Assembly (NCBI GenBank): GCA_021234155.1
Contig: JAJEKV010000006.1
Location: forward strand, 24,968,469 to 25,032,468
Direction of reading: 5' to 3'
Length of the DNA stretch: 64,000 nt
Source of the DNA: Isoetes taiwanensis
Lineage: Eukaryota; Streptophyta; Lycopodiopsida; Isoetales; Isoetaceae
Shown here: piece after piece, positions 52,376-64,000 of the stretch
How the letters are laid out: each line of letters opens with the position of its first letter
Numbering within the stretch: position 1 is the stretch's first letter
The notes under the pieces: model-generated
Told to the model about the DNA's origin: nothing
The model's input: only the letters and a program-made list of their open reading frames with translations
Database searches by the model: none
Made by a program: the position numbers and the translations under genes

Positions 52376-53900
52376 GCTTCAGCTAGAAATGTTGATGTGA
52401 ACCAAGCAATTACTAGCAGAAAAATGCATGCAATAATCAAAAACCTCTTTTGTATTACTTTTTATGTCCTTGGTTCATAGTATGTCAAGTTTATGTGTTC
52501 TGAGTTATATTTTATGCATGCATTCAGCTACCATCTGGGGCAAAAATTCCTCGATCAGCTTGCGCGCCTTGACTTTGTCAAAAACAAATGGAATGGGGAT
52601 TTCATGGCTGAAACTTGATTATCTTCATTCTTGACTATCTTCTAGATCCTAGACTTGATAATATGACAAGGGTTTCGGATTCGAAGGCCTTCGTTCCTCC
52701 AAGGCGTGAGAAGAAATTTCAGCCAAGAAAACCAAAGAAAATGATCGGATCAGTATCTGCCCCTGTAATTCAAGCACTTGCTTGAAAATGAGCCAAAGTG
52801 AACAAGAAGTAGATCAGATTCCACAACAATTTGTGTTAGAAGGACAAACTTTGAAGCAGGGCCAGTAAGTCAAAATTATGTTTTCTTGTGGAAAATCCCA
52901 AGCATTGATGGTTATGGATCTGAATTCCAACACTCTGCAGATGTGACAAAGATTCCATGGTTTGAACATTATGATAGACCAGGCTTCAATAACATCTCTA
53001 CTTTAAGCACAATTTCATTAAAATGAGAAATTTCGTGATTCCAATTAGGAACGAAAATCCTTTTTAGTCAAATTTATGCCAATTTTTTGAGCAATTATGG
53101 CGCCATTTAAAAAAAATATGCATCTAAAGTGCCATTTATTGGCGCCATTAAAAATTCTAGCATTGCATAAAATGAAGCTGGAGAAACATAACATCACAAA
53201 AATAGTAAAAAATTCCGAATTCATAGATTTGCATATTAAAAAATTTGCCAAAACAGGTAAGGACTCTAAGGGCAGCCAAATATACAAGAGTATTAGTGTA
53301 CAATTTACATTATTTTCATACAAAATTCAGGGTTCTTCATCGAGGGAACAGGCTCCACAATAGGATCAGTTCAGGTATGGCCGTGGCCATGGCTAGAAGA
53401 AGCAACCATAGGATCTCCCGTAAAGCTCTCGACGCCGTGGCGGTGAAATTGGGATCATCAAGAATGTCCATATTGAATTGTGTATTCTTGATCACATCAT
53501 AGTCCACATCGGGTGGAGCTTCGCATCATCTCGATTTGGTGGATCTACGGCTTCTTCAACTACGCCAGGTGGTCTCTCGTCCACGAGGAACATTTGCGAT
53601 GGTAGGATTCAGTAGGCGGTCAAGCCTATCTAGAATCCCCTTTAGGCACTCATGCTTAAGCGGGTCACTTTTCGAATACAATGCAAAATCTCTTATTCAG
53701 CAATGAAGCTCTGCCAAAAGAACCACAGGAGAAGTAATCAAACACCCACGTTTCTGGCGGTACCATTTTTTACGCAGGTGCGAGCATGTAGTGACCCACC
53801 TGGTTTCTCATAATTATGTCCCCTGGCAAGCCTTGCTACTGACTGAATGGCTGTTGTTGCGAGCTTCCGACCATAGCCTCGGTCTCCCCGTCTTCGTCTT
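52376..53900. other. No clear gene; first GGCGCC palindromes
   Basis: Only short frames. ATGGCGCCAT-type words appear at about 53098-53107 and 53139-53149, the first members of a dispersed palindrome set reaching 57.6 kb. It may be the 3' flank of the minus-strand element gene. Confidence 0.4.
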
Positions 53901-53902
53901 CT

Positions 53903-56580
53903 TCAGTTGGTAATGTGAACCGGTGGCGGTTCTTGAGGATGATCGTTGAAGGGGAACTTGAGGTCAATAACTTCGGACGGGAGGACCTTGATGGCCCGAA
54001 TCTTTGTGGCATACACTAGTGAATGGGCCTCCCCGAACTCCCCGGGGGCGGATTCTTGTATTCGCCCCTCATACATGCCAATATAAACTACGGATCTGGA
54101 ATCCGGATCATCCAATCTGAGATGAAATCAAAAAGTTGTGCTCCGCCTTGCAAAGACTACTATCCAAAAGAATCACCGTGGTGTTCTTTACATTTGATAT
54201 TAAAGAAATTTGTTAGTGTGGTTTTGTCCCACATTGGAAATATGCCTCTAGTGTCGGGCAATCAAGGATCTCGGTACGGGAGTGCAAACAACTTGTCCCT
54301 TTGTCGTACATTAGTTCAACTGCGAACGGAAGTCTTGTTATCCTCTCTCTTCAAGACAAAGATTGCGTATGAATCTTGCCAAAGGCAGGTGGCACGTTCG
54401 AAAATGCCTTCCTTGCCCACTCGGTTTCAACCCACTTTACTATGCAAGGTGGCCATGGAAATCAGGTCGGTATCCTCGAAGCCCTAAACGCTAGCATCGG
54501 AGATCGGTGAAGGACTTGAACTTCCTCGGAAAATTATCCTTCACGTATGCAAAAATCTCCTTCTTCAAGAAAGATATGGATCTTAGTGTCTTTGCCCTTG
54601 CCTTGAAGAATTGCTTACCTGTATAATCACTAGTGACCTTGACGAAGGTCTTCCCATCCAGCACTTCCTGGAACAGAACCCGACAGTCTTCGTAGTCCAT
54701 ACCCCTCATGCACCTCGGGGTAGGTCCGACCGGCAGTCGATTCTTTTGCCCGATTCACGAGGGTAATAGTTTGTCCCTTGTTGTCTTTTAGCTTGCAAGA
54801 TTTCCACAAGTTCCATAGGGACGCGAATAATCGAAAAATATCCTCCGGCATGAAGACCCACCGTTGAAATCTTTAGGATGCTTACCACGCATGGTAACTT
54901 CACGAGAGCGGATAACGCTGGAAACAACAAGAAGTTAGACTTGAACATTTAATGAGCAAATGGCGCCGTGGCGCCATTTTGAGGAAATGGCGCCCGTGGC
55001 GCCATTTTGAGGAAAATGGCGCCCGATGCGCCGTTTAGTGAACAAATGGCGCCACGGGCGCCATTTCATAATCTTGCAGAAAATTAAAACATGTACCTTG
55101 TATGGTTCTGAGCGAGATTGCCCGCGTCCGATGGATCGGGCTTCCCGCATAGAGCATATTCTTTGCCCTTGGTGGGTTATGTTATCAATGAATGGCTCTT
55201 TGAAAATAGTCTTCGCGGTGATATCATTGACTTCAATCGAAGCTGCGAGGCATTCTGTTCGATTGTTCGTGCGGACAACACTTTCGGCAATTCCGTTGAA
55301 GATAAATCTTTGACATTTGCTCTTGGGACTTTGGTGTGAGGAGTCTTCTACATACAAGTTGAGCAGCCATAACTCGAATGATTACCATTCACTATATAAT
55401 AGTGCATCCCCATGAGGTCATCCTCGGTTTTCCAAGGGACAGGTTTATTTGTGAGGGGATTGAATGGAATCACATCAGCGGGAGTGAAGACTGGATGTGG
55501 GTCTCTCTGAAAGGACTCCACCAAAGTTTTGACGTGCTCCATATTCCTTGGTCTAGATGTCAGATTTGCTGGTCCTTGATATAATTTGAACACGTCTATT
55601 TTTTAATGAATGTAACAATCAGAGAACTTGGATCTTGGGTGATCAGTAAATTTTTTAAAGTGTATTCTCTGCCGTCTTTTCCTCTTCTGACCTTTCCACC
55701 TGAAGATTTGCAGGCACCTCTAGCAAGTGCTGAGCTATTCTTAATGTGAGCTTCTTTGGCTCTAGCTTCTTAATGGGGACCCTTTTGGCCGGTGTGTCCG
55801 CGGGATCGCTATGCCTTGGGCTCAGGAGGGTTCACCACCACTTCTAGGACTTCCAGCCAGGGACTTGGAGTCCGAGGCTCTCCTTTGTTTTTGGTGTCCT
55901 CTCCTTCTCAAGGCTCTCTCGGCCTGTGCTTCTTCTTTTTCCCATCCGTTCCCTCTGTCTCCACTTCCTTTCCCTCCGTTTCTTTGTAGCCTTTCCTTCC
56001 TACCACGCCCCTTGCCTTCCCTATCCTTTTCTTTTTCCTTGCCCTTTTCTTTTCCTTCTTTTCCCTCTTTTCTTTATCTTCCTTCTCTTTCTTTTCCTTC
56101 TCTTTCTTTTCCTTCTCTTCCTTTTCCTTCTCTTCCTTTTCCTTCTCTTCCTTTTCTTTAGATTGTTTCTTTTTCCTTCTTTCCATATCTTGGATCTTTG
56201 TGATCCTTTCTCTTAACTTTCCTCTTGCCGCGCCTTTCCTTCCTCGGTTCTGGACATCCTCGATTAGAAGATGAGAGTCTTTGTGTTGCAGGTGTATCCC
56301 TAGGTTGTCTTGTCTTCTTCTTGCTCTTGTTTTTAGCCGGCCCGTGTCCACAATGGCGGGGTAGTTTATTTGGGCTATTGCCTTGACAGCGAATGAGAGT
56401 TTTCGACTCGTTCATCCGATTGCGAAGAATCATAAAGCCCCTCAAGATTTCTTGTGGACCTTTGATGTCGGCTTCTTCAAAGTGTTGTAATGACACCGTG
56501 ACCTTCAAAATTTTCTTTGCGAACCAGCTACATTTGCAATGCTAGCGAGACATCAAAGTGGGATCATAAAACTTCAGTCC
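53903..56580 (-). pseudogene. Two-gene DNA element: minus-strand protein with KE repeat and ParB-like motif
   Basis: N to C on the minus strand. 56508-56400: KVTVSLQHFEEADIKGP. 56351-55908: a highly charged stretch with (K/E)EKEEKEKEEK repeats, likely a long helix or disordered. 55593-55348: HVKTLVESFQRDPHP, then ADVIPFNPLTNKPV and YYIVNGNHSSYGC, the order of a ParB/sulfiredoxin-like N-domain (helix, DVIPF strand, then Y.I.nGnH). 55357-55100: a YVEDSSHQSPKSKCQRF segment. 54948-54500: ALVKLPCVVSILKISTVG and DYEDCRVLFQEVLDGKTF. Introns or shifts separate the pieces. Function unknown; a ParB-like fold could bind or cut DNA. It is divergent to the transposase-like gene at 59.5 kb. Confidence 0.5.
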
Positions 56581-57600
56581 ACTATAGTACACAATTATTC
56601 TCTGCTTCAAAGTATCTTCACAGACCACCGGATCCAATCCTCGCGACCGCTCTTGACAACCAACTTCATTTGGACCAAGATACGGGCTGGTAAATGCCCG
56701 GTTTGTTCGTGTCTGTCTCCCCTATAAGGAGGCAGAGCTCTCCGGCAGATCTCCTTTAGAGCCTCGTAGCGATAGAGGGGCTCACCGCATTACTTCCATG
56801 CACCAGCACATCTCTCAAACATCATAGTCTGGTCGGATTGAAATTGTGTTTCCATACGTAAGATAGCCGCAACAAAGAGGCATCAGCAACAAAGAGGCAT
56901 CGGTAAATGGTTTGAACAAGCGGTGAGACAATAGGTTGTGGTTGGCAAATGGCAGGTAAAACGCCATTTCATTTGTATCGATCAGTGCATAAGCCGCGGC
57001 CGTCGTATGCCTATCCTGCGTTTGGTCGAAGAGGGGGCCTCCACCCGTTCAAACCACTCCCCTTCGCAATATTGAGGAAGATAGTTCGAAGGAGAGTGGA
57101 TCGGACTGCGGGAGGCACCGCGACTCGAGGGAGATAACACAAACGAGAACAACAAGCGCATGAACCAGATGACTAGGCAAATAAGCCATGGCGCCATTTG
57201 CATCCGAAAGGCATAAGCAAATGGAAGATATGCGAATGCATTTCCCTGCGTTTTGACAAGAGTGCCGATCAGATCCGAGCCCCTCCCCTTCCAAATATTA
57301 AGTAAGATGGTTGGAAGGAGAGTGGCTCGACCGGTCGAGGCACCGCTACTTGAAGAGAATATATATGCCGCTGCCTCCATTAGTGTTAAAGGACTGGACG
57401 CAAGATAAAAATGCGCCATGGCGCCATTTGCCAACAACAACAAGACCCTATGGTAGCTAAAAGACATCAAATGGCGCCATGGCGCCATTTGGTAGCAACA
57501 AGACCGTTAAAGAGCAAGCTACCGGGCATCTAAAGTAAGCTAAGACTCTAAAGTGCACTCAATCATCAAATGGCGCCATGGAAGCCATTTAATCAACTAT
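54958..57600. repeat. Dispersed GGCGCC palindromes
   Basis: ATGGCGCC..GGCGCCAT words occur at 54959-54980, 54986-55005, 55015-55034 (degenerate), 55045-55067, 57187-57200, 57413-57430, 57469-57490 and 57567-57590, plus two near 53.1 kb. The copy at 57469-57490 is a perfect 22-bp palindrome. They are not evenly spaced and occur both in the coding part and in the divergent intergenic part of the element. Confidence 0.88.
55980..56170 (-). repeat. Short-unit (GAAAAGGAGAAG)-like coding repeat
   Basis: Plus strand reads as repeats of CTTTTCCTTCTC / CTTCCTTTTCCTT. On the minus strand it codes lysine/glutamate repeats. It keeps one long minus frame open (55908-56351), which suggests it was coding when formed. 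Confidence 0.8.
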
Positions 57601-58800
57601 AAGACCCCTAAAGTGGTTACCGGGGGCATCTAAATGTGTGATTGGCCATTTAGCCCAAACAAACAATGCAAGTAGGCGACATACACGCCCCTTGAGGTAA
57701 GCTAAGCTTACGTCTCCACATTTTGTTGAGCTCAGAATTGTCCATTTTCATTTTTTGCGCCTTGAATTTGGTCCAGAAAACCGGTGTGTATCTAGATGTG
57801 TTGAGGCGGTGAAGCTAGCGGGGAAATGGGCGCCAGAAATCCTTGAAAAAAAAGGATGAAAAAGGGTTGCTTTAGTATTTTGGGCTAAACATTTGACTAA
57901 ATTCAGAAATTGCTGAAGCCGTCAGCGCTAAGGTTGGGAGCTGGAGGTCAGCGAATGAAGCCGAATGTGCTTGAAAAAAACAGTGACCCAACTAGGGCCC
58001 ATCGCTATCGGTAGCCCATGCCGCCGAGCCCATACACGCCCGGTGCGTCGCTGATCCAGCATATACGTACTGTCGCGGAGTCCGGCCCTCCATGCCGCCC
58101 GACCACCCTCTCCCCATGCCGTGGCGATCCAGTATGCCCATGCCACAATTAATTTTGAAATCGAATATTTCCCCGCCCCTAGCGCCCGCCAGCCCAAATT
58201 TGAACATAAAATTCAAAATTCCGCCCGCCCGCAAAATTAACATAAAAAGTCAAAATTCCGCCGTATATTGAAATTTGGCTGCCACGTCAAATTTGAATCG
58301 TCCGTTTTGAAAATTGTACTTTGCCTTTAAAGCTCCCTTTTTGCCCGTGCTCCCACTTAATACGACCATGCCACGGCAGCGGGGGCGTTTTCGGTCACCG
58401 GTTCGGCTTTTCCGAATCCGCTTTGTTCGTCTCATTTTTGCCGCTTCGATAAAGCCTTCTTTTCTCTCGCGCCTAGCGAGAAACTTTGCAAAGGCGCATC
58501 GCGTGTCATCGGGCGCTTTCTTCTTGCCAGCTCCAGAAATCGGGTGATTCTTGGCTTTCTTCTTGGCGAATCCTCCTTCTTCTTCTCGAGATCTTTCTTT
58601 TTTTCTTCTTGAAGCTCTTCTTGCGAGCATTCTTACGCCCAATATATCTCTTGGGATCAGCTTCATTTTTCTGTTCTATCTCTTTTGCTCCGGGACATAC
58701 CACTATGGATCTATCTAATATCAAGTAAGTCCTTTGTTTCTGGTATAAATTACGTTCTATTGCTGCCATGTGTATAGAGTGTTCAAATCTTGGACATTAA
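56600..58800. other. Divergent intergenic region of the second DNA element
   Basis: No gene is supported. A diverged direct duplication is present: 57058-57125 and 57286-57355 (CCCTTC..AATATT, then GAAGGAGAGTGG.TCG). GC-rich sequence near 57990-58200 and several palindromes occur. Frames here are short or repeat-derived. It may hold the promoters of the two divergent genes. Confidence 0.5.
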
Positions 58801-58929
58801 TCTTTGCTTAGGACACTGAGAACCTTGGTTTCAATTGCAAAGTTGGCATGGGGTGCCCATGTTATGCATGCTGCTCTTATTGACACATATACAACAATGG
58901 GAGTAAGAATGCATAACATAGGCACCCGT

Positions 58930-59260
58930 GTAGATTTTGTGATGGAGTTAAGCCATTTGGTGGAAATGGTGTTGGATCAAATGGCCATGGGCCATTTGGT
59001 CCGAAATGGTGTTTGGATCAAATGGCCATAAGCCATTTGATCCAAATTCACCTATGAATGTGCCATAGGTGTGAATTTGGATCAAATAAGCCATGCTTCA
59101 TTTGATCACCTATTCATTTCAAATGGCCATTGATCAAGTGTTCATTCGATTACACCAAATGGTCATCATTTAGCTCAAATTTGGACCAAAATTTATACAT
59201 TTGTACTAAATAAGCCATTTTGGCTTATTTTTGCTTATTTTTCCTCTATTTCATATGTTA
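58930..59260. repeat. ATTTGGATCAAATGGCC repeat cluster
   Basis: Multiple copies of (A)TTTGGATCAAATGGCCAT and its inverse, e.g. near 58970-58995, 59005-59045 and 59085-59110. The motif contains ATTTG/CAAAT inverted halves and shares the AAATGGC end with the GGCGCC palindromes to the left. The cluster lies just upstream of the plus-strand transposase-like gene. Confidence 0.75.
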
Positions 59261-59520
59261 GAAAAGTGTAAGCCTTGCTTGATTGAAGCAGGGTTTAATT
59301 TTCCCTGTACAACCTATTAGGTGGGAGGGACAATTGTTGCCCGGGGACATATTTTGAATAGAACCACTCTTCATGGGAAGGGAAATAGATCCTTCAAATG
59401 TAAAGTGAGGTCAGTTGGTCCGGTGATCCCATCGTGAACTTCCGGTCCCTGAGGAGGCGATAACATTGGGTGAAGCGGTTGGGCACATTCATTGATGGCC
59501 TAAGAGGGATGTAAAACCAA

Positions 59521-62270
59521 ATGAGTGGCCCTCAAGTGAAGATCGTCTTGAGATCCCTCAATTTGCCCTCTTCACAAGAGGATTCATCTAGTAGTCCATC
59601 GTCAGCCGGTGGCCAGGACATCGGTTCTTTGCTCCTTTGTGGTGAACCAAGCAACACAGCAACAAATGAAAGACGAGATAGTAGAGGAGATTGGAGGTCA
59701 TGAGAATCTAGCTGCCCGTCTTGGTCTCGGGTTGTTTAAGCTTCGAAGATGGAGCAGTCTACTACTCGGAAACGGATCTACTAGGTTTGCCATGCTACAT
59801 TCTTCACTCACGCACGGATCTAAATATTGGGAGGCGAATATAGTCTTTAGTGATCCTCGGGATGCTATAGGCGATGAGTTCTTGGTGTATCAAAGGTCGG
59901 GCTTCGAGTGGGTAACATAATAGATCCAACGGGGAAACCAAAATATCGGTCATGTCATGCTTGTCTTTGAGAGGCCTATACCTATGATCTAGTAACACAG
60001 GGAGACCCATCTTTGTTTTGCTTCATGATGGTAGAGACAGTTCACAACATTTACAAGCTCTTGCTGCTCTCGAACATGATGATTTAGAAGTTGAGTGCTT
60101 GGAAGGCGATGTTGAGAAGCAATTCAAGAGGAAAAAAAATATACATATGTGAAGAGGGTCGGGGAGGAACCAAGGGGATGGCAAGGAGGAGAGGATGTGC
60201 GCTTCCAAGGCAATTAAGAGTGATCTAAAATCAACATCTTTGCAAGGGCCGAATGTGTCAAAAACCCGAGCCCGGTGTGCAAGTATGTGCCTTAAGAAAA
60301 AGAATTTTATTCTCAATCAAGCAAAGGCGAGGATTACGCTTGTTTTGATGTGTTAGTGTAACTTATCTGTGGAGGGCGGTCGGGCCGAAAGTAGTGGTTA
60401 CGTGGAGTGGAGTCTTTGTCAATTTACGCATGGTAGCGTGGCTTTAGGAGTTGCCTCGACCACGCTTTTTATAGTTGGAGGAAGAGGTTGAGTTAGGTGG
60501 AAAGCGGGCGAACATGGTATCTGATCTAAGAAGCTCTGTAGGATGCGTGACACTAGCTTCTGAAAGTGTGCTTGATACCTTCATTAGTGAGAATGCAGAG
60601 AGCATTCCACATAAAACAAAAAGGAAAGGATGATATAAGGGAGAATGTTCAAAACTTCCTTCCATCCTTAATAAGAAAGAGCATACATAAGGAGGTGGGT
60701 AGTGGTGGAAGAATTGACGAGGAAAAGAGTGTAACCTTGCCCTCTTTTTACAATATTTGGAAGAAAAGAGTTTCGGAGCGTCGACATAGCAAAAAAATAC
60801 AAACATTCTCCAAGTGTAACATATGTGTAGTCATCAAAGAAATTGGAAAAGAACAAAAGATATAAGGGGAGAGGCAACCTTTCAATTCTTGGCGGGCACA
60901 TATGTTGGAACAACGTTCTGGGAGTCAATATTGGCATTGGCGTGCATTATCACATCGTTCGCCGGAGAAAGTCACCTCGCATAATACATGATAAGATGGA
61001 TCAAGGTCAAAACACTCACACCAAGAAGTCACCATCTCATAAAGTCTGTTTGGAGAGGAGATGCGCTTGAAGGCGGGGAGCATTGACACATGGTCATGGT
61101 GGGCGCTTATGGCCATTTCTCTCTTGATCTTTGGAAGGATGACTCAAACTTTCATGTTGGATCACTTTCTAGGATCCTACACTATCTTGAGTTAGGAAGA
61201 AGACAAGTGTGGTGATTTGTGTGGAAGCGAACTACAGTTGCAAATTGATGCAAGCCCTAAAAGATACTTCGATTAAGCGCAACATAAGCTAGTGCGGACA
61301 CAGAAGATGATGCCTTCATCTTTAGTGCCAACTTAGAAGGCTTCAATCCTCTTCGGCAAATCTACTTACAGTTGGATAATGCATCGGGTCAAAAAAATAA
61401 AAAATAGATATGTGTTCTCCTACCTCTCTTATTTGACATGGCTTAAGGTATTGATGAGATTCAGGTTGGCTTCATGATGGTTGGGCACACTCATGGCGAT
61501 ATTGATGCATTGTTTGGGAACTTTTCGGCGTTAATGAGTTCATGGATGCTCTAACTTTGCACGAGTTGCTTTACTTGTTTAGCAAGTGCAATGCAAAAGT
61601 CTCTGTTCCATATTTTGTGGATGAAGTTCCGTATTGGAAAAGGTTTTTGTCAAGGGATATATCGATAAGGGCCAACGTCTAACAGCCATACCGAGCCATT
61701 GCTATTAGATTTAAAATGGATGGGAAAATGGCCCATTATGCAATATAAGATGCGCCAACCCATAAAGAGTGGATTCGAGAAAATGGAATAAGAATGTGGA
61801 AGGAGGATGAAAATGGTGAGCCAACATTACCAACAGGGGGTGCCTAAAAATATCCCTCAAAGGAAGACATTGAAAAGATCTCCACGGCTTTGGCGGAGGC
61901 GACATCAAGCCAGTACATAGCATTATGGAATTCCTTCTGCAAAAATGGGGAAGAAGATAGTGTGTTTTGCACGCGCCGGTACAAAAGCAACTATGGATTC
62001 TTGAGCGAGATTCTTTTTGTGTTTGGAAGATGTATCTAGGGCGACCTCAAAATGATAACTTTTGGTTGCGTACAAGGCAAGAACCTCTACAAGCTGCATT
62101 TACTCAGTCGATGAAGCGGCTGTAAGACCTTTGCCTACATATATTATTAGCCGGATGAAGCGTCCGGTGTTGCCTATGGATGGAGTTGATCCTCATGCAC
62201 ATGTTACGAAAGGTATGTTTGTTTTAGTCCGAGGGCAGGCGATGAAACTCCAGCGTGGTTGGGGCTTCTG
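59521..62270 (+). pseudogene. Two-gene DNA element: DUF7869-like transposase relic
   Basis: Pieces in order. 59521-59920: HENLAARLGLGLFKLRRW and DEFLVYQRSGFEWV. 60700-60850: VTLPSFYNIWKKRV then TFSKCNICVVIKE (Cys pair). 60950-61010: RIIHDKMDQGQN (acidic motif). 61090-61190: HGHGGAYGHFSLDLW after shifts. 61360-61400: YLQLDNASGQNKN. 61454-61520: IQVGFMMVGHTHGDIDALFG. 61600-61830: VPYFVDEVPYWKRFL and KEWIRENGIRMWKEDENGEP. From memory, the LDN / GHTHEDIDA pattern marks DUF7869-type proteins, a presumed DDE (RNase H-like) transposase family. Several stops and shifts make it non-functional here. Confidence 0.65.
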
Positions 62271-62279
62271 AGAAAGAAA

Positions 62280-63100
62280 GATGCCATCCTAGATCGAGTC
62301 TACCAATTATGGTCACATTTTTGTATCATGGTGGATGCACATTTGGTGCATTGACTATACAGTTGCTTAACTAAGCGTTGGCGACCCAATCCATGAGATC
62401 CATCCAAGGTATGAAGTTAGATGCCATACATTATGCATGGGATGCAAATGGCAAAAGGCAGAAGGCTGTTCGGATTCAAAATACATTGTTGACATGTGGG
62501 GGACATAGCATTAGCTAAAGCTCTCAATCTGAGTCATGTTCTCGATAATCATGTATGTAATTTCTTTTGCTATAATACTTAAGCATTTTGGACAATTATC
62601 GTTAATCGATACATCCTAATCATATAACAATCACTTAAATCTATTATAATGGGTGTTCATCCCATCATTATCGATCACCACGGTGTCGATGGCATCCCAT
62701 CTCAGATTCAGATACACATATTATTGATGGCGTTATAAGTCGATGATTCACTCATCATCAATCTATTGTGATCTTGTCCATTTCCATATTATTGATGTAC
62801 ACTATGTAATTTAGATGCACATATTATTATTGATGGCATTATAAGTCGATGGTTACACTCATCATCAATCCACCCTGCTATTGTGATAAGCACATTCGTA
62901 CAAGTAGGCATGGCTCGGGAACCCAAAGAAGATGGTCCACAACGAGTAAGGCAGGGCAATCACACTCCGCGACCTTCCTTTTGGATTGTAAGTAAGGATC
63001 CGGCTCTTAACACCTTTACGTTATGCGATTAATATCATTGTAGCTCATGCGGAGCAAAGAATGGTCTCAATGATCATCGTTAAATATTATAAGCCATGAT
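62280..63100. other. Right flank of transposase relic, no gene
   Basis: A partial duplication (ACACATATTATT.. TTGATGGC.TTATAAGTCGATG) near 62713-62760 and 62816-62860 is visible. No protein motif is recognised. Confidence 0.45.
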
Positions 63101-63129
63101 GGGAGATGAATGACTTCTAGAGATGGAGC

Positions 63130-63270
63130 TGCTTTTATAGTCGTTGTAAATTATTGGTATAATGCCGGCATTATTGGTATTATCGTGAGCATTATTGGTA
63201 TTATCGTCGGCATTATTGGTATTATACTTCAACATTATTGGTCAGTATACTTCAACATTATTGGATTAGT
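63130..63270 (+). repeat. ~18-bp tandem repeat (CATTATTGGTATTATCG)
   Basis: About seven units of GGCATTATTGGTATTATCGT and variants. The plus frame reads IIGIIVSIIGIIVGIIGII, which is an artefact of the repeat. Confidence 0.9.
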
Positions 63271-63299
63271 AGCTATAAATTCTTTTACCTTGTTTCACT

Positions 63300-63790
63300 T
63301 CTCACTTTTCATCCTTGCTTCTTGCTCCTTCATATTCCTTGTTCCTTGATCTTCTTGCTACTTGATCTTCCTTGTTCCTTGATCTTCTTGCTGCATGATC
63401 TTCCTTGTTCATTGCCCGGCTACTTGATCTTGATCCTTGTTCCTTGCTACTTCATTCCGTGCTCCTTCCCTACTTGATCTTGTTCCTTGCTCTTGATCTT
63501 GCTCTTTGCTACACTTGATCTTGATCCTTGTTCCTTGCTACTTCATTTCCGTGCTCCTTCCTACTTGATCTTGTTCCTTACTCCTTGATCTTGCTACTTG
63601 ATCTTGTTCCTTGCTACTTGATCTTGATCCTTGCTTCTTGCTCCCTTGATCTTCCTTGTTCCTTGATCTTCTTGCTACTTGATCTTCCTTGTTCATTTGC
63701 ATCTTGCTACTTGATCTTGATCCTTGTTCCTTGCACTTCATTCCGTGCTCCTGCTACTTGATCTTGTTGCTTGCTCTTGAACTTGCTACT
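63300..63790 (+). repeat. CTTGATCTTGTTCCTTGCTA minisatellite
   Basis: Nearly 500 bp of interleaved CTTGATCTT, GTTCCTTG and TGCTACTTGATCTTG units, with a longer unit around TTCATTCCGTGCTCCT recurring near 63450, 63540 and 63735. The frames it opens on both strands are repeat products. Confidence 0.9.
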
Positions 63791-63853
63791 TACTTTCTGC
63801 TCGTGTTCTACCGCCCCACACTCGTCGGTGATCGCCCCTTTGCTTTTTTTTAA

Positions 63854-64000
63854 ATGATTGGACCCAATCCTCCCGGGCTTCTCGGAAGGCACGCAAGCAT
63901 GCCCAATTACGATAGAGCCTGGAATGCGGATGAGCTATGGGACCATTTCTTGGAGTGGAGGGTTGGCATGCAGTCCCGCAAGGAGCCCCACAATGGGGAT
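63854..64000 (+). CDS. 5' part of an open frame running off the window
   Basis: ATG at 63854 opens 49 codons to the window end with no stop: MIGPNPPGLLGRH, then YDRAWNADELWDHFLEWRVG, ending QSRKEPHNGD. The composition looks protein-like (Trp and charged residues spaced as in a helical start). I do not recognise it. It could be the first exon of the next element gene. Confidence 0.4.
   Translation, partial: MIGPNPPGLLGRHASMPNYDRAWNADELWDHFLEWRVGMQSRKEPHNGD

Follow-up and report, generated by a model that had tools for sequence, protein, structure and literature searches.

ParB–methyltransferase accessory genes are already known from algal transposons. In the brown alga Ectocarpus, the element Sola1-1_Ec32 carries an opposite-strand gene for a 1104-amino-acid protein that joins ParB to an N4C/N6A methyltransferase (PMC12477816; here and below, a cited paper stands for the parts of its text that we covered). 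The same paper cites green and red algal transposon counterparts of this gene, and its authors suggest that the Sola1-1_Ec32 protein binds and epigenetically modifies its own sequence. In Bacillus cereus, a ParB-like domain is fused to an adenine methylase in a protein with nicking activity (PMC5512222), and cytosine methyltransferases have been described in retrotransposons of dinoflagellates and charophytes (PMC5890265). Here we analyse a 64,000-nucleotide stretch of the land plant Isoetes taiwanensis (contig JAJEKV010000006.1, positions 24,968,469 to 25,032,468; hereafter the window), taken from a genome of 1.66 Gb in 1110 contigs. From position 53005 to its end, the window is occupied by a large class-II transposon, in decayed form, with two genes: gene A, for a ParB-like and methyltransferase-like protein, and gene B, for a DUF7869 protein, the presumed transposase. 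The sequence-only reading of this DNA did not know the pair as a described system, but its general kind had already been described, in Sola1-1_Ec32.

The left boundary of the element was located by aligning the window with six 10-kb copies (L005-L010). The alignment breaks off at window positions 53001-53005 in five of the six (L005 and L007-L010), and earlier in L006. At this point stands a terminal inverted repeat (TIR); AAGCACAATTTCATTA... is found at both ends of the element, as in class-II transposons, and the inverted repeat AAGCACAATTTCATTATAATGGGAAAATTTT closes the opposite end in other copies. Using BLAST searches for the TIRs, we sought the ends of 11 copies and located both in seven, all of which are flanked by direct repeats of exactly 4 bp without a consensus (TCTA, AAGT, GCCC, CAGA, TTCA, TGAA and AATT). 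These are target-site duplications (TSDs). Lengths computed from the end positions were 11.4, 11.8 and 11.8 kb for copies C1019, C1060 and C1045, respectively. The end beside gene A (A-end) was sought and not found in C1068 and C1007, as was the opposite end (B-end) in C907. For the copy studied here, the B-end lies outside the window, and a search of the following 1.1 kb (L030) did not reveal it. Relatives fall into two groups, clade 1, which comprises distant subfamilies, and clade 2, the window's own subfamily. A clade-1 copy, C919 (L037 with L002), has a TIR of its own (AACAACGT...) and likewise a TSD of 4 bp (AACT). The element is thus a two-gene TIR DNA transposon with a 4-bp TSD, belonging to a large land-plant DUF7869 superfamily. 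This bears out the earlier proposal of one large element with shared terminal repeats. The extent first given, 53100-63100, does lie within the element, which starts at 53005 and, beyond 63100, continues to the last position of the window.

The window copy is dead. Searches with the open frames of relatives (tblastn) meet many stops and both genes are broken; one alignment of exon 1 crosses 17 stops, that of exon 2 crosses 18 and the longer DUF7869 alignment 11. We therefore describe the genes from better-preserved copies. In gene A, an N-terminal domain is followed by a linker rich in lysine and glutamate (KE-rich), a ParB-like domain and a methyltransferase-like domain. The first three make up exon 1 (e.g. 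L008:5403-7145), and a presumed intron with palindromes, deduced from open frames rather than RNA, separates it from exon 2 (e.g. L008:7138-8829). The minus-strand DVIPFNP...YYIVNGNHSS piece that the sequence-only reading picked out is present in the window, as the open stretch 55348-55602. That reading named the protein ParB-like with KE repeats; both parts stand, and what it overlooked is the methyltransferase-like exon at about 53344-54940, which makes the protein a relative of ParB-DNA-methyltransferases. When the window pieces and L008 exons 1 and 2 were scanned directly against Pfam, PHROG, NCBIfam and PDB, nothing resembling ParB or a methyltransferase scored above chance. One match in these direct scans, at E=5.4e-5, was a low-complexity match of the KE-rich linker and was discounted. 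As clear domains came only from distant subfamilies, the domains were assigned through those.

The ParB-like domain of clade 1 (L039) matched the profile TIGR03764 at E=3.7e-4 and 20.2 bits, for which the curated cut-off lies far higher, at 143.75. Using hhalign, the clade-1 domain matched an alignment of four plasmid ParB proteins at E=7.8e-6, and clade 2 matched clade 1 over this domain at E=5.3e-7; two unrelated control comparisons gave E=0.67 and 0.19. Profile similarity to the ParB/sulfiredoxin superfamily is thus found in clade 1, and in clade 2 only through clade 1. A tblastn search of plasmids with the L039 domain returned seven weak records (E 0.04-0.3), five of them named ParB family protein. 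A mixed-clade profile (A3) listed sulfiredoxins as six of 11 PDB sequences, all over the same 30 positions, at E-values (1.2-2.7) that are suggestive and not significant; these matches were not repeated when a clade-2 or a clade-1 profile was compared with PDB. Single-sequence AlphaFold2 prediction of the window piece gave a low-confidence model (mean predicted local distance difference test score, pLDDT, of 43.6). The ParB assignment rests on profile comparisons via distant subfamilies.

Judging by profile and motif matches, the methyltransferase domain of clade-1 gene A is a relative of beta-class N6-adenine DNA methyltransferases with catalytic motifs. The L036 piece matched PF01555 at E=5.4e-15, which passes the cut-off, and a profile of five clade-1 pieces matched the solved N6-adenine methyltransferases MboIIA, RsrI and CcrM at E=1.4e-10 to 2.4e-9. 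Motif IV reads ADIPYGF, with DIPY rather than the usual DPPY, in eight of nine clade-1 loci scanned, and motif I reads DAFSGSGTT in L036, L047, L048, L050 and L051.

The window's clade, as far as its aligned copies tell, carries a degenerate METHYLTRANSFERASE and has lost the methyltransferase motifs. Its exon 2 terminates in a motif-I-like stretch (PPGTGVFDYFSCGSFGRASLLNKRFCIVFESDP), and motif I reads FDYFSCGS or LDFFSGGA. Four clade-2 pieces had no Pfam match, exon 2 gave only a weak PHROG hint (phrog_3008, E=0.44), and an exon-2 profile found nothing of note in PDB. The hhalign comparison of clade 2 with the clade-1 N6A methyltransferases (E=2.5e-4, probability 43%) aligned motif I alone. 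At the presumed place of motif IV, which was deduced from order and spacing, LD[TA]R stands in eight of the ten rows spanning it, and the canonical [DNS]PP[YFW]-type motif in no row. We next compared the ratio of nonsynonymous to synonymous substitution rates (dN/dS) between copies. In the degenerate domain, four between-subfamily pairs gave 0.14, 0.14, 0.17 and 0.33 (dS 1.8-3.0), and in the clade-1 methyltransferase five pairs gave 0.06-0.11 (dS 0.75-1.17). Three pairs for the ParB-like region gave 0.03-0.08, values that are unreliable at a dS above 2. Pairs with low dS gave 0.22-0.55, matching the expectation for decaying copies, and pairs with saturated (infinite) dS give no ratio. Because the clade-2 region looks constrained between subfamilies, its degenerate domain probably keeps a non-catalytic role.

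In gene B, the plus-strand motifs LQLDN and GHTHGDIDALF of the sequence-only reading are both present, in a single frame of the DUF7869-like region with a stop between them. A better copy of this frame (L010:8646-9629) matched Pfam DUF7869 (PF25273) at E=1.2e-36. The aspartate motifs LQLDN and GHTHxxID occur in both clades and VIDGMDQ in clade 1, from which we infer DDE/D catalysis. The N-terminal stretch, IVARGH...IGEAVGTFIQWPKRDV (L010:6584-7273, corresponding to window 59294-60225), has no Pfam match; it resembles the Tnp1/En/Spm-like domain of CACTA second proteins. In clade 1, a weak match to the RFX DNA-binding (winged-helix) domain precedes DUF7869 (L036:1660-3144, E=0.013; L038:246-3209, E=2). 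The word "DUF7869" was not found in the literature searched, outside which most subscription journals lie. One methyltransferase piece and one DUF7869 piece were compared with viral contigs, and neither found a relative there.

We next determined how regularly the two genes occur together. A rough first look at the genome gave 9,906 DUF7869 candidates; the ParB-like piece had 2,999 and a 58-amino-acid transposase piece 2,039, of which 150 each were scored. The other copies that the sequence-only reading proposed to collect are thus abundant. Between the best 150 ParB-piece and the best 150 transposase-piece matches there were 25 pairs within 25 kb, compared to 0.68 expected if positions were uniform. 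Of these, 23 have the divergent arrangement in which gene B lies on the 5' side of gene A, and the other two both belong to one locus on C985. When the methyltransferase piece was paired with DUF7869 in clade 1, all 20 pairs were divergent; like the previous counts, this samples the best matches and is not a frequency over all copies. Eight loci were chosen by DUF7869 alone (L036-L039 and L062-L065). Five of them (L036, L037, L039, L062 and L064) have a divergent ParB-like gene 5' of DUF7869, which runs on into the methyltransferase in every case. The two genes are therefore usually paired, as had been supposed, but not always. One could regard gene A as an ordinary host gene captured beside the transposase (transduplication), since passenger genes are common in large transposons (see also PMC12477816). 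We find this very hard to credit, as the pair is nearly always divergent and spans subfamilies whose ParB domains share only 22-23 percent identity.

The palindrome-rich centre from which the genes were said to diverge was confirmed, and consists of arrays of perfect palindromes between and inside the genes. Positions 53005-64000 hold nine perfect palindromes with arms of at least 9 bases, compared to 0.7 in shuffled sequence. With a narrower gap limit there are seven in the element and six in the 53 kb to its left, and none of those six has a repeated core. As palindromes also exist outside the element, single ones are not rare, while repeated identical ones are. They recur near the starts of both genes and downstream of the ParB exon, with one further site in L062 between its two methyltransferase pieces; not all loci cover or have every place, and in L064 the ParB-exon site is the only one seen. 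The repeated unit differs by subfamily. It is CAAATGGCGCCATGGCGCCATTTG in the window family, AAATGGCGCAGCTGCGCCATTT with variants in L041, L045 and L063, AAAGTGTATTCCGGAATACACTTT in L038, L039 and L064, and CGGTATAAATTTATACCG in L062. Palindromes with arms of at least 9 numbered 85 in 15 clade-2a loci (0.0 in shuffled sequence), 44 in seven clade-2b-type loci (0.3), 13 in three L038-type loci (1.0) and 16 in L062 (0.0). The search left the four centre bases free. In clade 2, the outer pair of these is complementary in 96 of 140 units (shuffled mean 60.6, maximum 74) and the inner pair in 87 of 140 (mean 62.0, maximum 78), which serves as support and not as a probability, the units of an array being related.

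The exact 24-mer palindrome of the window family occurs at 649 sites in the genome and its reversed control at none. We sampled 27 of the listed sites, and for 12 the distance to a listed match of gene A or gene B is at most 9 kb (two matches were entered by hand). Five loci were fetched from the remaining sites, and in four of them the palindrome lies between genes A and B (the stretch fetched for L056 covers only the N-terminal part of gene B). The fifth is L060, where an A-end TIR is followed by window-family palindromes without gene A or B in the fetched stretch (L060:2741-5034 and L061), possibly a non-autonomous or rearranged derivative. Its interpretation as a gene-less derivative was dropped when extending the stretch by 5 kb did not reveal a second end.

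A protein and its sites that co-evolve would be expected to leave this pattern, in which a conserved ParB-like gene is accompanied by palindromes whose positions correspond between subfamilies while their sequences differ. This suggests that the arrays are cognate sites for a protein encoded by the element. Alternatively, the palindromes may be a by-product, either of tandem duplication of hairpin-prone DNA or of hairpin RNAs that feed small-RNA silencing, with gene A unrelated to them. They do lie partly in tandem arrays, and those in the intron could fold as RNA. However, their sequence differs between subfamilies at corresponding places while their symmetry is retained, and we consider this explanation quite improbable.

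Half-sites of the palindrome were found inside all 11 A-ends, 93 and/or 137 bases in (128 in one copy, small shifts in others), and none was found within 600 bases of the five B-ends. Gene A might, in line with the sequence-only reading, be a transposition cofactor that attaches to the palindromes and aids the transposase by nicking or bridging DNA. It is usually encoded beside the transposase, the ParB domain of the Bacillus cereus ParB-methylase nicks DNA (PMC5512222), and the half-sites at one end raise this reading a little. We still judge it unlikely, since all five B-ends are without a half-site, the full palindromes are internal, between the genes and in the intron, and gene A has another residue in place of the ParB pocket arginine (see below).

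Together, the domains and their candidate sites suggest that the element recognises and marks its own DNA. In the mechanism that we propose, gene B transposes the element by DDE/D-type cut and paste, and gene A would act as a self-recognition protein, a dimer of which would bind the palindromes of its own element in the manner of ParB on parS. The bound protein would occupy both promoters and its own intron. In the catalytic subfamilies of clade 1 it would also methylate adenines of the element, while in the window's subfamily the methyltransferase domain would be retained for binding or structure and not for catalysis. As an outcome, the element might be marked or protected against host silencing, the transcription of both genes might be tuned, or the element might be licensed for its transposase. 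We think this mechanism has an even chance of being correct. A more specific form of it, which we offer tentatively, is that of a eukaryotic, transposon-borne counterpart of ParB-parS. The ParB-like protein of each DUF7869 subfamily would read its own palindrome and load only on its own kind, at both promoters and its own introns. By depositing N6-methyladenine (6mA) in clade 1, or by acting as a non-catalytic loader in clade 2, it would provide a private self-versus-other mark.

Several observations weigh against self-recognition by gene A. Taken by itself, the ParB region of clade 2 gave no match to plasmid ParB (hhalign, E=0.31), and neither did a mixed-clade ParB alignment (E=0.19); because of this lack of a direct match, the clade-2 assignment is by transitivity via clade 1. 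Where plasmid ParB has the arginine of its GGNTR motif, gene A has a serine aligned (GGNHS, in clade 2 GNHS). Lack of this arginine argues for a binding role and against ParB-type enzyme activity, and by its sequence we class the domain as ParB-like and not as an active ParB enzyme. Some of the dN/dS values above are unreliable owing to near-saturated dS. Three of the eight loci picked by DUF7869 (L038, L063 and L065) have no divergent gene A in the fetched stretch. L065 has no gene A match in the 5.7 kb 5' of DUF7869, L038 holds only the gene A N-terminal domain, and L063 counts as a miss because its sole gene A lies on the DUF7869 strand and comes, palindromes included, from the other clade. 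With these three loci, gene A may be dispensable in a copy that moves. Palindromes with arms of at least 9 were absent from L036 and L037 (0.7 in shuffled sequence); L036 has only a shorter one, GTATGAATTCATAC, with three occurrences in the 112-bp tandem repeat that follows its ParB exon. L042 has none with arms of 9 and three by a looser scan, and L060 has one TIR and palindromes without genes, its second end not having been found. L065 also lacks palindromes with arms of at least 9.

The gene A of L063 (L063:110-2416) is of clade-2b type and stands about 3 kb before a clade-1 DUF7869. It probably belongs to another element, and the locus may consist of adjacent or nested elements or be a mosaic.

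Gene A might instead be mainly an anti-silencing or transcriptional regulator that acts on host chromatin at the element, with the palindromes as regulator sites and with methylation and ParB chemistry irrelevant. VANC of VANDAL elements is the model for such a regulator. The window's clade lost its methyltransferase motifs in a region that still looks constrained, and palindromes lie near the starts of both genes, as this would have it. On the other hand, ADIPYGF and DAFSGSGTT are kept in distant subfamilies, so catalysis matters somewhere. We regard such a regulator as possible but somewhat unlikely. The features of the window copy are listed in Table 1.

Table 1. Features of the transposon copy in the window (positions of the whole stretch).
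Feature	Position	Strand	Evidence
TIR, A-end (AAGCACAATTTCATTAAAATGAGAAATTTCG), left boundary	53005..53035	+	alignment stop in other copies and inverted counterpart at their far ends
Palindrome half-sites ATGGCGCCAT and GGCGCCAT, 93 and 137 bases inside the A-end	53097..53150	.	A-end comparison
Gene A exon 2, decayed, methyltransferase-like (approximate)	53344..54940	-	tblastn of L008:7138-8829, E=3.4e-39, 18 stops
Palindrome array AAATGGCGCC..GGCGCCATTT, presumed intron between ParB-like exon and exon 2	54958..55066	.	palindrome scan
Gene A ParB-like domain (open piece 55348-55602)	55076..55602	-	hhalign, family against the ParB domain of distant subfamilies, E=5.3e-7
Gene A KE-rich linker, within a 167-amino-acid open stretch	55908..56411	-	KE-rich linkers at the same place in L005-L010
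Gene A N-terminal domain, decayed	56412..56882	-	tblastn, relative of L008 exon 1 start
Palindromes 5' of gene A, including CAAATGGCGCCATGGCGCCATTTG at 57468-57491	57175..57595	.	palindrome scan
Palindromes 5' of gene B (AAATGGCCAT..GCCATTT variants)	58949..59230	.	palindrome scan
Gene B N-terminal part, decayed	59294..60225	+	tblastn of L007:1387-2334
Gene B middle part, decayed	60887..61192	+	tblastn of L010:8169-8564
Gene B DUF7869 domain (LQLDN and GHTHGDIDALF), decayed	~61295..62346	+	tblastn of L010:8646-9629
CTTGATCTTG-type tandem repeats, B-side region	63315..63791	.	window 62785-63961 aligns with L011 and L013, and with L014 to 63996

Three other features were seen in passing. The CTTGATCTTG-type arrays at 63315-63791 have multiple shifted matches to L011-L015. 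In L009, a Copia-like gag-pol open frame of 642 amino acids (L009:6129-8057), with a zinc knuckle and integrase-like motifs as judged by eye, lies beyond the palindromes where gene B would be expected. The SAM_LFY family, a marker of land plants and their close allies, had four matches in the genome (C907, C1059, C1034 and C779).

This high-copy land-plant superfamily presents intact and degenerate versions of one gene side by side, with subfamily-specific palindrome arrays beside it. Through palindrome swaps between subfamilies, the published guess that proteins of this kind bind and mark the transposon encoding them becomes directly testable. The superfamily also offers defined loci at which to seek DNA 6mA in a plant, 6mA being a disputed mark in eukaryotes (PMC12695648).

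As in ParB-parS partition systems, a ParB-like protein is encoded beside clusters of perfect palindromes. Unlike those systems, the host is a eukaryotic transposon, a methyltransferase is fused to the protein, and palindrome binding is inferred. Sola and CACTA were both considered as candidate superfamilies. The 4-bp TSD agrees with the Sola superfamily, but the AT-rich AWWT TSD of Sola2 elements (PMC3627910) is not the rule in window-family copies. The Bacillus cereus ParB-methylase shares the fusion of ParB with an adenine methylase and differs in being prokaryotic, and a transposase partner is not mentioned in the parts of that paper covered (PMC5512222). According to PMC12477816, which cites a 2011 study and Petroll et al. 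2025, algal counterparts have a like kind of accessory protein inside transposons. Among the matches listed by our literature search, which left out most subscription journals, there was no report of a ParB–methyltransferase gene in a land-plant transposon. The closest likeness is to Sola1-1_Ec32, also a large DNA transposon with a ParB-like and N4C/N6A methyltransferase gene on the strand opposite its transposase. That element is brown-algal and 21.5 kb long, and the covered parts of PMC12477816 do not mention a palindrome array. While accessory genes of this kind are thus already known from algal transposons, the land-plant host, the DUF7869 partner, the palindrome arrays and the degenerate-methyltransferase lineage are new here.

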